Below are positions 60,428 through 64,000 of a stretch of DNA of 64,000 nucleotides, piece by piece. The stretch lies in assembly GCA_023954855.1 (NCBI GenBank), contig JAGSGY010000001.1:1-64000 (forward strand), given 5' to 3'. The translations under genes were made by a program, and so were the position numbers. Origin of the DNA: Pseudomonadota bacterium. Lineage in GTDB: Bacteria > Myxococcota_A > UBA796 > GCA-2862545. The notes beneath the pieces are model-generated. The model did not search any database, had not been told where the DNA came from, and was given only the letters and a program-made list of their open reading frames with translations. Within the stretch, counting starts at the first letter, position 1. Each line of letters starts with the position of its first letter.

Positions 60428-61558
60428 CTAGAGAGCGGGAAGGCCGGCGATGTCACGAGCTACGCGCAGCCACTCAGCATCGAGTGCGCGCCGTGAGGCC
60501 TTGCCGAGCTGTCCACACGCCGCCGAGATGTCTCGACCGCGCGACACGCGAATCGTCGCATTGAGGTGACGGCCGACGAGGTGCTCTTGAAATGCGACCA
60601 CTGTCTCGTCCGCGGGCCGCTTGAGATCCCGGTCGGGGTTCTCGTTGTACGGAATCAGATTCACCTTCGCCCGCACGCCGGCGAGCAGGTCCACGAGCCG
60701 GTCCGCGTCCTCGAGAGAGTCGTTGAAACCCTTGAGCATCACGTACTCGAAGGTGATCATCTTGCCGCGCCGGAGCGGGAACTTGCGACAGGCCTCGAGC
60801 AGCTCTTCGACCGAGTACTTCGACGTGATCGGCATGATCTCGCGCCGCTGCGCATCCGAGCTCGCGTTGAGACTCACCGCGAGGTTCACAGGCAATCGCT
60901 CTGCGAGCTCAGCAATCCTCGGCACCAAGCCCACCGTCGACACCGTGATCTTGCGGTGCGAGAAGTTCTGGGCGTTCTCGTCGAGGCAGATCTCGAGGGC
61001 CGAGACGAGGTTTTCGAAGTTGTGTAGAGGCTCGCCCATACCCATGAGCACGATGTTCGTGATGCGCTCACCCTCGGGCAGCTGGCGGCCGATCTGAAGA
61101 GGCTGGTTGGCGATCTCGCTGATCTTCAGCTGCCGCTTCAGTCCGAGGTCTCCGGTGAGACAGAAGGTGCATGCCATCGCACAGCCGACCTGACTCGAGA
61201 TGCACAACGTGAGCCGCTCACCGTCGGGGATGAGCACACTCTCGATCGTGAGTCCGTCTTCAAGCGTCCAGAGGTACTTCACGGTGCCGTCTTCGCTGCG
61301 CAAGACCGTCATCGGAGTGAGAAAAGCGATGTAGGCGCGCTCGGCGAGGAGCTTGCGGATCGGTTTGGCCACGTCGTCGACTTCATCGAAGCTGCGGGCC
61401 CCGTGCTGCCAGATCGACTTGTACAGACGAAGCGCGTGTCCCTCGTTCGCGCCGAGTTCATCGACCATCCACCGCGTCAGCGAGGGCAGGTCAAAGGACT
61501 TGATGTCCACGCGTCCGTGCTCGTCCTTGAGCAGCTGGCGAGCGGAGCGGCGGGGCAT
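60428..61558 (-). CDS. rlmN: Dual-specificity RNA methyltransferase RlmN
   Basis: A 376-residue radical SAM enzyme that makes m2A at 23S rRNA position 2503 and at tRNA position 37. The cluster motif is CAMACTFC within SSQVGCAMACTFCLTGDLG. Other signatures are NIVLMGMGEPLHNFENLV and FEYVMLKGFNDS. The methyl-carrying Cys is in ISAACGQL near the end. The ATG at 61558 has GGAG about 11 bases upstream. A frame open further upstream crosses the divergent promoter region and is not used. Confidence 0.95.
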   Translation of the reverse strand: MPRRSARQLLKDEHGRVDIKSFDLPSLTRWMVDELGANEGHALRLYKSIWQHGARSFDEVDDVAKPIRKLLAERAYIAFLTPMTVLRSEDGTVKYLWTLEDGLTIESVLIPDGERLTLCISSQVGCAMACTFCLTGDLGLKRQLKISEIANQPLQIGRQLPEGERITNIVLMGMGEPLHNFENLVSALEICLDENAQNFSHRKITVSTVGLVPRIAELAERLPVNLAVSLNASSDAQRREIMPITSKYSVEELLEACRKFPLRRGKMITFEYVMLKGFNDSLEDADRLVDLLAGVRAKVNLIPYNENPDRDLKRPADETVVAFQEHLVGRHLNATIRVSRGRDISAACGQLGKASRRALDAEWLRVARDIAGLPAL

Positions 61559-61721
61559 GGTGCGGTCGAGCTCCACGGGATCTCCAGAAGGCACTGCCCA
61601 TAACCCAGCCCCCGGGCTGGCAGAATGGCCAGGCAGGATCGTTCTCGGAGGCCGAGGTGTTTTTTCTTTTCCGACCTTCGGCCTTGGCGGGTCGAAGAGA
61701 TGAACCCCAACCGGGGACGCG
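61559..61721. promoter_or_regulatory. Divergent promoter region between rlmN and the ECF sigma gene
   Basis: These 163 bases hold a perfect six-base inverted repeat, CCAGCC CCCG GGCTGG (61605-61620), a T-rich run at about 61659-61670 and a CCCC/GGGG mini-hairpin just before the sigma gene start. The inverted repeat could be an operator or a leader hairpin for rlmN. No confident promoter boxes were found, including no GGAAC-type ECF box. Confidence 0.45.
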
Positions 61722-62261
61722 ATGTCACTGACGGACCAGGAACTCTCGGAGCTGTACGACCGGTATGCCCACGTGCTCTTCCACCGCGCGCTCTCGATTC
61801 TCAAGAACGAAGAGCTCGCGCACGATGCCGTACACGAGACGTTCGCGCGCGTGATCCAGAAATCCGACGAGTTCCGCCATCAGTCCAGTCCCCTCACTTG
61901 GATGTATCGAATCTCCACCAACTACTGCCTCAACCAGATTCGAAATCGGAAGCTCCGAACGAAGAAGCACGAGGACCACACCGAGGACATCATGGGCTCA
62001 CGAACCGCGGACCCACATGAAGGTGGCACCGACCAAGCCCGCATGATGCGTCTGCTGGAGACGGTCGACGACGAGACCCGCGCCTGCGTGATGTACAGCT
62101 TCTTCGACGACTGCACGCGCCAAGAGACGGCAGACCTGGTTGGGCTCTCGGTGCCGACCGTGCGTAAGCGCATCAACGCGTTTCTCGATCTCGCCCGCAA
62201 GGACCTCGGCCGCGGGCTCGTTCTCACCGCCATCGCGCTGCTGGCCTGGAGCCTGTCATGA
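61722..62261 (+). CDS. ECF-type sigma factor with a hydrophobic C-terminal tail
   Basis: A 179-residue sigma factor. Region 2 is ELSELYDRYAHVLFHRALSI with EELAHDAVHETFARVIQ and TWMYRISTNYCLNQIRNRK. Region 4 is LLETVDDETRACVMYSFFDD and ADLVGLSVPTVRKRINAF. Unusually, the protein ends in a hydrophobic stretch (LVLTAIALLAWSLS, residues 166-179) long enough to touch or enter a membrane. GGGGACG is upstream of the ATG. It overlaps the next gene (ATGA) and so is coupled to it. Confidence 0.88.
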   Translation: MSLTDQELSELYDRYAHVLFHRALSILKNEELAHDAVHETFARVIQKSDEFRHQSSPLTWMYRISTNYCLNQIRNRKLRTKKHEDHTEDIMGSRTADPHEGGTDQARMMRLLETVDDETRACVMYSFFDDCTRQETADLVGLSVPTVRKRINAFLDLARKDLGRGLVLTAIALLAWSLS

Positions 62262-63040
62262 TGCCTCGCACCCGCGAAAACACCGGGGACCGGCCCTCTC
62301 GACTCACGCTGGCGCGCTTTCACACCGGAGAGCTCAGCGCGGCCGAGAGCGCAGAAGTCGAGATCTGGATTCGCGACAACCCCGCAGACTCGTTCCTCGA
62401 CGAGCTCGAAGCCAGCCGTTCCAGCGTTCGGCCCGTCGACATCGCCTCGCTACGGGCCGCCAGTCTGACGCTGGTCGACGAGCCCGCCCCCCTTCCCGAG
62501 CCCGCCAATCAGGCTTGGCGTTGGGCGCTGCCGCTCATCGTTCTCGCCGCCGCCCTGCTGTTCTTCGCTCGCGGCACACCCGAGCAGATCGCGACGACGG
62601 CGGATCCTGCGGGCGTCACCTACAAGGGCACCGCCTCACTCGAAGTCTTCCGCCTCACCGGAGAGGTGCTGACCCCCTATGAGGGCGAGGCACTCGGCGA
62701 GGGCGACACCATCGGCTTTCGGGTGGTTCCGGGCGACCACGACCACCTCGTTCTGCTCTCTGTCGAAGTCGACGGCACCGTGAACATCCTCTACCCGGAC
62801 CCATTCGTGAGTGGGGACGCCTCCGAGCCCATCCGCCCAGGAGGACATCCGACTGAGCTTCCCGGCTCGATCATCCTCGATGGTGCCGGTGACCCCGAGG
62901 TGTTCGTGGCGGTGTTCGGCGGCAAAGTGTTGACCGCCGCCGCGCAGGCTCGAGAGTCCTTCGATGAAGGCGGGCTCGAGGCCGTGATGGACCTTGCGGA
63001 CGAGCCTCACATCGATGCCGTCGAGGTGGTGCGCAAATGA
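62258..63040 (+). CDS. Single-pass anti-sigma-like protein with DUF4384-like outer domain
   Basis: A 260-residue membrane protein. The N-terminal 60 residues (LTLARFHTGELSAAESAEVE) resemble an anti-sigma domain without its zinc Cys. A transmembrane helix (88-104) follows. The outer part (about 115-260) has the pattern of DUF4384, a domain often found next to caspases: GEALGEGDTIGFRVVPGD, LVLLSVEVDGTVNILYPDP and EVFVAVFGG. The gene overlaps its neighbours by four bases on both sides. It most likely holds the sigma factor at the membrane. The zinc-free anti-sigma assignment is by pattern only. Confidence 0.75.
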   Translation: MMPRTRENTGDRPSRLTLARFHTGELSAAESAEVEIWIRDNPADSFLDELEASRSSVRPVDIASLRAASLTLVDEPAPLPEPANQAWRWALPLIVLAAALLFFARGTPEQIATTADPAGVTYKGTASLEVFRLTGEVLTPYEGEALGEGDTIGFRVVPGDHDHLVLLSVEVDGTVNILYPDPFVSGDASEPIRPGGHPTELPGSIILDGAGDPEVFVAVFGGKVLTAAAQARESFDEGGLEAVMDLADEPHIDAVEVVRK

Positions 63041-64000
63041 GCTTGCTTCTCGCCATCCTGCTGGGTGCAGCCTCCGCCGAGGACGTGCGGATCGGCATCT
63101 TCGTCGGAAACGACGATGGCGGCGCAAGCCAGAAGCCACTGATCTTCGCGACTTCCGACGCCGAGAAGATGCGCGACCTCTTTGTGCAGCATGGCCAGAT
63201 CGCCGAGAAGAACGCCCTACTCCTCACTGACGAGCCGACTCGCAATGTCGAGAGCGCGTTCGTCATCGCGGGCCAGCGCCTTGCAGAGGCCGAAGCGCGA
63301 GGGGCACACACGACGCTGATCTTCTACTACTCGGGCCACGGCGACGACCACGGCTTGAAGCTCGGCAACAGCACTCTGGAACACGAGGCGCTGCGCGGCT
63401 GGCTCGAGTCCTCTGGCGCAGATGTCCGAGTGGCCTTCCTCGACGCCTGCCAGTCCGGGGGGGCCGTCCGTGAAAAGGGCGGAACCCGAGGGCCGAGCTA
63501 CGCATTCGCGGTGGATGCCTCGAGAATCGAGGGGACGGCCTTTGTGACGTCCTCGGCGGCGACCGAGTTCTCGCAAGAGTCCGACGAGATCGGCGGCGGC
63601 TTCTTCACTCATTACCTGCACGGCGCGCTCGCGGGAGCCGCGGACGCCGATGGCGACGGCGATGTGACCCTCGCCGAGACCTACGCCTACGTTCACACCG
63701 AGACCGCCTTCGCCACGCGTGACGCCCCCGGCTCGCAGTCTCCAGTGGTGGACCTCGACCTCACCGGCGAAGGGTCGGTGCGCCTCACGAGGCTCGATGC
63801 CGAGAGCGCCTTCATCCGCTTCGGTGGAGGCATGGAAGGCACGTACGCGGTGTGGGATGAGACGCGCCGACGCTACGTCGCCGAGGTCGACGGTGCCCGC
63901 GCCTCAAAGCTGGCCGTGCGTCCCGGGACCTACTTCTTGCATCACCGCATGCCGGGCTGGGTGGACCAGGCCGAGCTCCAAGTCGGGCGTGGCGAGAGCG
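63037..64000 (+). CDS. Exported caspase-like (C14) peptidase, cut by the right window edge
   Basis: At least 321 residues, and the frame is open to the end of the window. A short signal peptide (MSLLLAILLGAASAED) is followed directly by a p20-like caspase domain. The catalytic dyad is complete: His101 in FYYSGHGDD and Cys138 in FLDACQSGG. A calcium-type loop DADGDGDVTLAE (203-214) fits the EF-hand pattern exactly. After about residue 230 comes a beta-rich domain of unknown type. The ATG overlaps the anti-sigma stop (ATGA). It would act in the periplasm on proteins with basic or acidic residues, the class preference of bacterial orthocaspases. Confidence 0.88.
   Translation, partial: MSLLLAILLGAASAEDVRIGIFVGNDDGGASQKPLIFATSDAEKMRDLFVQHGQIAEKNALLLTDEPTRNVESAFVIAGQRLAEAEARGAHTTLIFYYSGHGDDHGLKLGNSTLEHEALRGWLESSGADVRVAFLDACQSGGAVREKGGTRGPSYAFAVDASRIEGTAFVTSSAATEFSQESDEIGGGFFTHYLHGALAGAADADGDGDVTLAETYAYVHTETAFATRDAPGSQSPVVDLDLTGEGSVRLTRLDAESAFIRFGGGMEGTYAVWDETRRRYVAEVDGARASKLAVRPGTYFLHHRMPGWVDQAELQVGRGES

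Follow-up and report, generated by a model that had tools for sequence, protein, structure and literature searches.

A conserved operon of an ECF sigma factor, an anti-sigma-like membrane protein and a caspase with a predicted barrel, proposed to link the cell envelope to gene expression in the Myxococcota

Gene content and conservation of the operon

The stretch of DNA analyzed here (64,000 nucleotides; hereafter, the window) ends in three genes on the same strand, which encode an ECF sigma factor, a single-pass membrane protein (hereafter, the middle protein) and a caspase-like peptidase (Table 1). All three frames are open, and consecutive genes overlap by four bases (ATGA at 62258 and 63037). 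The caspase gene is truncated by the end of the window and its remainder was read from contig C2 of the host assembly (G000), where a 284-aa lipoprotein-like gene begins on its last base. Within the window's order, nearly every locus encodes a lipoprotein of this family, defined by the pattern C-G-x-[IL]-S-N-x-x-F-x-[ED]-D-x-x-F, behind the caspase, and the unit therefore comprises four genes. The preliminary description of this locus had reported three genes with four-base overlaps. This holds, the ECF sigma factor gene being complete, and the trio stands as described; the fourth gene, beyond the end of the window, had been missed. The sigma factor matches Sigma70_r2 (3e-13) and Sigma70_r4_2 (5.8e-8) in Pfam and TIGR02937 in NCBIfam, all over cut-off, and contains only sigma2 and sigma4 domains, as expected of an ECF factor. 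Upstream, a divergent rlmN-like gene occupies 60428-61804 (- strand); the TTG listed as its start falls within the sigma factor gene, and translation probably begins elsewhere.

Table 1. Positions of genes, domains and sequence elements of the operon in the window.
Feature	Position	Strand	Description or basis
Operon promoter, TTTTC-N16-CGGGTC	61667-61693	+	Conserved; sole match in window, 0.01 expected
ECF sigma factor gene	61722-62261	+	179 aa; sigma2 and sigma4 domains
C-terminal hydrophobic tail of sigma factor, GLVLTAIALLAWSLS	62214-62258	+	Hydropathy; possible membrane anchor
Middle gene, single-pass membrane protein	62258-63040	+	260 aa
Anti-sigma-like helical domain, no zinc motif	Residues about 1-80 of middle protein	+	Model, homology
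Transmembrane helix of middle protein	62504-62569 (residues 83-104)	+	Model helix and hydropathy
K123-G124, candidate caspase cut site at linker/outer-domain junction of middle protein	62624-62629	+	[KR]G conservation
Ig-like/DUF4384-like outer domain	Residues 124-260 of middle protein	+	Model, VIA
Caspase-like (C14) peptidase gene	63037-64000 in window	+	Full gene ends at G000:C2:64602; 521 aa
Catalytic His101 (SGH)	63337-63339	+	Invariant in 32-row caspase alignment
D136-A-C138, catalytic Cys and Asp two before	63442-63450	+	C138 at 63448; invariant in 32-row alignment
K147-G148, loop after catalytic Cys	63475-63480	+	Invariant in 32-row alignment; R at -3 in 66/71
EF-hand-like Ca2+ loop, DADGDGDVTLAE	63643-63678 (residues 203-214)	+	Loop pattern

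With start codons set by rule, a protein search of 94 relatives, most of them metagenome assemblies, recovered the middle gene in 43. The sigma factor and caspase genes flank it in 38/40 relative loci, mostly with identical four-base overlaps; the two exceptions are an orphan middle gene and a locus broken by a contig end. Since this flanking is kept across relatives, the association is more than a chance neighborhood, which we ruled out as an explanation. A phylum-wide profile search identified the caspase in 97 of 284 sampled Myxococcota genomes (E <= 1e-20), and a sigma factor gene lies upstream of it in 32 of the 34 testable distant Myxococcota loci (those with at least 1.55 kb of upstream sequence among 40 taken). 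The linkage whose absence from relatives the preliminary description had named as refuting its proposal is thus conserved. In 63 genomes of the order, at least 112 of 122 middle-protein matches adjoin a caspase, a lower bound that adds up 98 with a caspase among the matches listed, 13 of 20 inspected exceptions and one further locus. Pairs of sigma factor and middle protein without a caspase also exist (L185-L189, L193 and L200).

Four of the five C14 proteins of the host genome sit in operons of this type. The three further operons (L107, L108 and L109, at G000 C128, C2:122000-130000 and C86) include two with a zinc-motif middle protein, and in the L107 caspase the SGH and DAC motifs are replaced by STH and ATC. 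The fifth C14-type protein (L110:3522-4694; G000 C2:219521-220693) lies outside such an operon and its active-site motifs look degenerate. An orphan middle protein (L036:5182-5997), with neither sigma factor nor caspase, retains R-G after the transmembrane helix.

Predicted architecture of the three proteins

The AlphaFold model of the middle protein (pLDDT 87) predicts three to four N-terminal helices, a disordered linker (residues 110-122) and an Ig-like domain from residue 124. VIA likewise aligned the protein to an Ig-like domain (Z 8.4), in a comparison that barely covered the N-domain. Foldseek returned no PDB match at E <= 0.001 for the whole protein and only immunoglobulin-like folds for the outer domain, and a profile search of the PDB with the middle protein found no relative. 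The Pfam match to DUF4384 (PF14326) is weak for the window protein (E 0.068, 13.7 bits against a cut-off of 27) and reaches 28.3 bits in its homolog L033. Among 72 related middle proteins, an H-x3-C-x2-C zinc motif is kept in 20, all distant relatives, and is absent from the window protein and its clade; zf-HC2 scored above cut-off in two of five zinc-motif relatives scanned. Homology links the middle protein to proteins combining zf-HC2 and DUF4384, and it appears to be a DUF4384-type anti-sigma factor that has kept its zinc motif in distant relatives alone. One homolog from the same genus matches DUF4880, the N-domain of FecR, below cut-off (E 1.4e-4); the window protein has no DUF4880 match in Pfam.

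The sigma factor ends in a short hydrophobic tail of about 15 residues, which may act as a membrane anchor. Its hydropathy (1.58 over 18 aa) is the highest among the ECF sigma factors parsed in the host genome (next, 1.05), and other members of the clade have clearer tails, with values up to 2.6. When a tail was called at an 18-residue hydropathy of at least 1.6, a threshold that the window's sigma factor falls just below, none of the 20 zinc-bearing loci had one, against 24 of 52 zinc-less loci. The caspase-domain tree, which labels the host's phylum as Myxococcota, unites the window-type loci in a single clade of 33 rows with support of 100/99. Lowering the tail threshold to 1.5 gives 28 tailed sigma factors in this clade, and the zinc motif occurs in none of its loci. 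Because window-type loci group in a single clade and zinc-bearing loci are tailless, the tail looks like a derived feature of the window's clade.

In Pfam, the caspase matches Peptidase_C14 (2.3e-8), and C13 is the only other match at E up to 1. VIA aligned its catalytic domain to metacaspase 4 with a Z score of 21. The His-Cys dyad is retained in nearly all of 72 caspases, which argues that catalysis is under selection. A DAC, DSC or DGC motif is present in 71 of the 72 and aligns with the DSC of metacaspases; Asp136 is accordingly expected to be the S1 acid that accommodates a basic P1 residue. An EF-hand-like loop matching the strict pattern occurs in 58/72 caspases, and its profile weakly matches calcium-binding proteins of the PDB, so the enzyme is probably Ca2+-dependent. 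We also considered K147-G148 as a self-cleavage site and rated it down after aligning it with the KG of a solved metacaspase, since a dipeptide shared with that structure may be structural. Orthocaspases and metacaspases cleave after basic residues (PMC5756287), and judging from its motifs the window caspase probably does so too, after Arg or Lys.

The hydrophobic N-terminus of the caspase (MSLLLAILLGAASA, followed by E) resembles a signal peptide. In the model of the full-length protein, residues 16-240 form a caspase domain and residues 249-332 a small beta domain; eight long strands at high pLDDT follow (354-520), and Foldseek assigned them to OmpA/OmpX (E 5e-8). The protein is thus predicted to end in an eight-stranded barrel of the OmpA/OmpX type and to be located in the outer membrane. 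A C-terminal Phe, the usual ending of outer-membrane barrels, is found in 32 of 39 caspases. Given an eight-stranded barrel, the N-terminal, catalytic part of the caspase would be expected to face the periplasm, by analogy with OmpA. The notion of a plain secreted protease was dropped once the full gene revealed the predicted barrel. In one related caspase (L070:1884-3965, - strand), a C-terminal part composed of repeats such as GVVNIAG replaces the usual barrel ending.

Several points of the preliminary description are borne out by these analyses. It had proposed a secreted caspase with an intact dyad, and H101 and C138 are indeed invariant in 32 aligned rows and accompanied by a signal-peptide-like N-terminus. 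It had also proposed a zinc-free anti-sigma-like N-domain, now linked to distant relatives that keep H-x3-C-x2-C and in some cases match zf-HC2, and a DUF4384-like outer domain, which is Ig-like in the model and matches DUF4384 weakly in Pfam. Its placement of the caspase outside the inner membrane is likewise retained; the predicted outer-membrane barrel and the Ca2+-type loop had been overlooked.

Candidate cleavage site and predicted regulon

At the junction of linker and outer domain, where K123-G124 lies in the window protein, a [KR]G dipeptide is kept in 82 of 85 caspase-linked middle proteins (69/72, plus 13/13 that are more distant), with Arg at -3 in 51 of the 69. It is kept in five and missing in three of eight caspase-less relatives, a difference with a Fisher P of 0.008 computed on rows that are not phylogenetically independent; the pairs of sigma factor and middle protein that lack both the caspase and the site are L187, L188 and L189. 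R-x-K-G is rare in the other proteins of the operon (1/35 lipoproteins and 1/41 sigma factors). This pattern points to K123-G124 as the putative cut site of the caspase, although the motif that caspase and middle protein have in common may be partly structural, five caspase-less relatives keep it too and the site sits directly against the outer domain's first strand.

The promoter of the operon is similarly conserved. Instances of TTTC-N13-20-GGGTC lie upstream of 25 of 38 sigma factor orthologs (shuffled sequences: mean 0.17, maximum 2), so that the operon looks autoregulated. Across five genomes, TTTC-N16-CGGGTC yielded 73 matches, compared with 15 for a reversed control. Among 44 genomic matches inspected, 11 precede lipoprotein genes under a crude lipobox rule that was relaxed after a stricter version, which gave 5/44, had missed real lipoproteins. 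The extended form CGGGTC[CT][AG] is present in 17 of the 44, and nine of these 17 immediately precede a lipoprotein gene, compared with 1.55% of random sites, an enrichment that is optimistic because the form was selected after viewing the matches. Four families of the predicted regulon recur between genomes (L211/L223, L214/L221, L215/L243 and L228/L245); they include a beta-lactamase-like protein and, in L228/L245, paralogs of the lipoprotein encoded by the fourth gene of the operon. Single matches include CotH and pectinacetylesterase-like proteins. The sigma factor thus probably switches on genes for surface lipoproteins.

A proposed envelope-to-gene signaling route

We propose that the operon encodes an envelope-to-gene signaling system in which the outer-membrane caspase cuts the middle protein and thereby frees the sigma factor, a reading to which we assign a probability of roughly one half. 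The exported caspase would be anchored by its C-terminal eight-stranded barrel in the outer membrane and would project its catalytic domain into the periplasm, and the middle protein would cross the inner membrane with its Ig-like domain outside and its anti-sigma-like domain inside, where it would bind the sigma factor. An envelope or surface signal would trigger the caspase; Ca2+ is a possible candidate because the Ca2+-type loop is conserved. Reaching across the periplasm from the outer membrane, the caspase would cleave the linker site of the middle protein C-terminal to its conserved Lys/Arg. Housekeeping proteases acting within the membrane would then remove the inner part of the middle protein and release the sigma factor, which would read the TTTTC-N16-CGGGTC promoters of its own operon and of a group of lipoprotein genes. 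For loci of the window's clade, membrane retention may have passed in part to the sigma factor itself through its hydrophobic tail, since the zinc site has been lost and the sigma factor carries a tail of its own. We hold more tentatively to the full form of this proposal, in which the outer-membrane-anchored caspase is a dedicated site-1 protease that cuts the anti-sigma factor at the basic-Gly site and induces lipoproteins, and the sigma factor of one clade became self-tethered as zinc was lost.

A somewhat unlikely alternative is that the sigma factor and the middle protein form the sensor pair, and that the caspase is simply one of its products, an outer-membrane protease that has prey or other envelope proteins as its substrates and spares the middle protein. 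The apparent autoregulation of the operon would fit such an arrangement, as would the other predicted targets, which are likewise surface proteins, and the sigma/anti-sigma pairs that exist without a caspase (L185-L189, L193 and L200). The near-constant adjacency of the middle-protein family to a caspase (at least 112/122) and the retention of the linker [KR]G in 82/85 caspase-linked proteins, however, are harder to reconcile with a caspase that spares its neighbor. We consider it improbable that the barrel instead retains or shields the middle protein through direct contact, with another protease (Prc, an unknown site-1 protease or RseP) making the cut and the caspase acting elsewhere: TonB-dependent receptors do shield FoxR by contact (PMC11637429), and the layout of outer-membrane barrel, inner-membrane anti-sigma factor and ECF sigma factor is shared, but the retention of the His-Cys dyad in nearly all of 72 proteins indicates that catalysis is selected. 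Trimming of the sigma factor's hydrophobic tail by the caspase, instead of or besides a cut in the middle protein, is very improbable: the tail does mark the window's clade, which also lost the zinc site, but few tail residues would extend into the periplasm, 40 of 41 sigma factors have no R-x-K-G and caspase loci with tailless sigma factors are common.

The proposed release of the sigma factor by the caspase has partial parallels in known systems. FecI/FecR/FecA and FoxI/FoxR/FoxA (PMC11637429) also combine an outer-membrane barrel, a single-pass inner-membrane anti-sigma factor with a zinc-free helical N-domain and an ECF sigma factor. The window's barrel, in contrast, is predicted to be of the eight-stranded OmpA type and carries a caspase in place of a TonB-dependent receptor with a signaling domain, its middle protein has an Ig-like/DUF4384-like outer domain, and its predicted regulon consists of lipoproteins. 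With RseA/DegS/RseP in the sigma-E response it would share the logic of a periplasmic cut that starts the release of an ECF sigma factor, with the PDZ serine protease replaced by a C14 caspase whose predicted anchor lies in the outer membrane. The preliminary description had drawn a likeness to type III-E CRISPR, where a protease of the caspase clan cleaves a protein that inhibits an ECF sigma factor (Csx29/Csx30/CASP-sigma; PMC10028731), a cut that here is proposed. That likeness stands as an analogy of logic; kinship was ruled out by the protease family (C14, with no TPR-CHAT match) and the signal-peptide-like N-terminus, Csx29 being a cytoplasmic, RNA-triggered TPR-CHAT protease and the window's enzyme a secreted C14 peptidase. 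FecI/FecR-type cell-surface signaling is the closer comparison. Sigma factors with a C-terminal segment that tethers them to the membrane, as may be the case in the window, are known from IutY and in ECF48, ECF52 and ECF53 (PMC8999054), where the anti-sigma factor is fused to the sigma factor; the window has a short bare tail, and its anti-sigma-like protein is encoded separately.

The linkage of sigma factors with caspases is itself already known, having been reported for sigma-70 genes in four metacaspase operons of Myxococcus xanthus, covering four of its five caspases, and for operons in Anaeromyxobacter, Haliangium, Sorangium, Ralstonia and Fibrobacter (Asplund-Samuelsson 2012, PMC3501461). 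Going by the pairing of sigma factor and caspase, which is the basis of the comparison, the window's operon is very probably of the same kind as those of M. xanthus, and the host genome shows the same ratio of four in five. The operon section of that paper names the sigma factor alone, with no anti-sigma factor, barrel, tail, lipoprotein gene, promoter or mechanism. Caspase/ECF neighborhoods have also been described in EACC2 systems (PMC8195603), and ECF54 occurs with CHAT proteins (PMC8999054). In the open-access literature, we found nothing that describes the barrel, the anti-sigma partner or the regulon.

To this known linkage, the present analysis adds an apparent DUF4384-type anti-sigma middle protein, with the zinc motif retained in distant relatives alone, a hydrophobic C-terminal sigma factor tail in the window's clade, a basic-Gly site at the linker/outer-domain junction of caspase-linked proteins and a conserved promoter that recurs before lipoprotein genes in related genomes. 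The preliminary description had already envisaged a proteolytic circuit in this operon; its linkage is upheld, and the sigma factor tail, the promoter with its lipoprotein regulon and the candidate basic-Gly site had escaped it.

The function of bacterial caspase homologs is a long-standing question, and these results provide a large, conserved caspase family of the Myxococcota with a candidate substrate, a testable residue, a promoter and predicted targets. If the proposed cut is true, the site-1 step performed elsewhere by proteases such as DegS would fall to a caspase domain, and a protease, not a transporter, would read the outer membrane. The unit may thus be a signaling line that carries a signal from the envelope to genes by way of a caspase.
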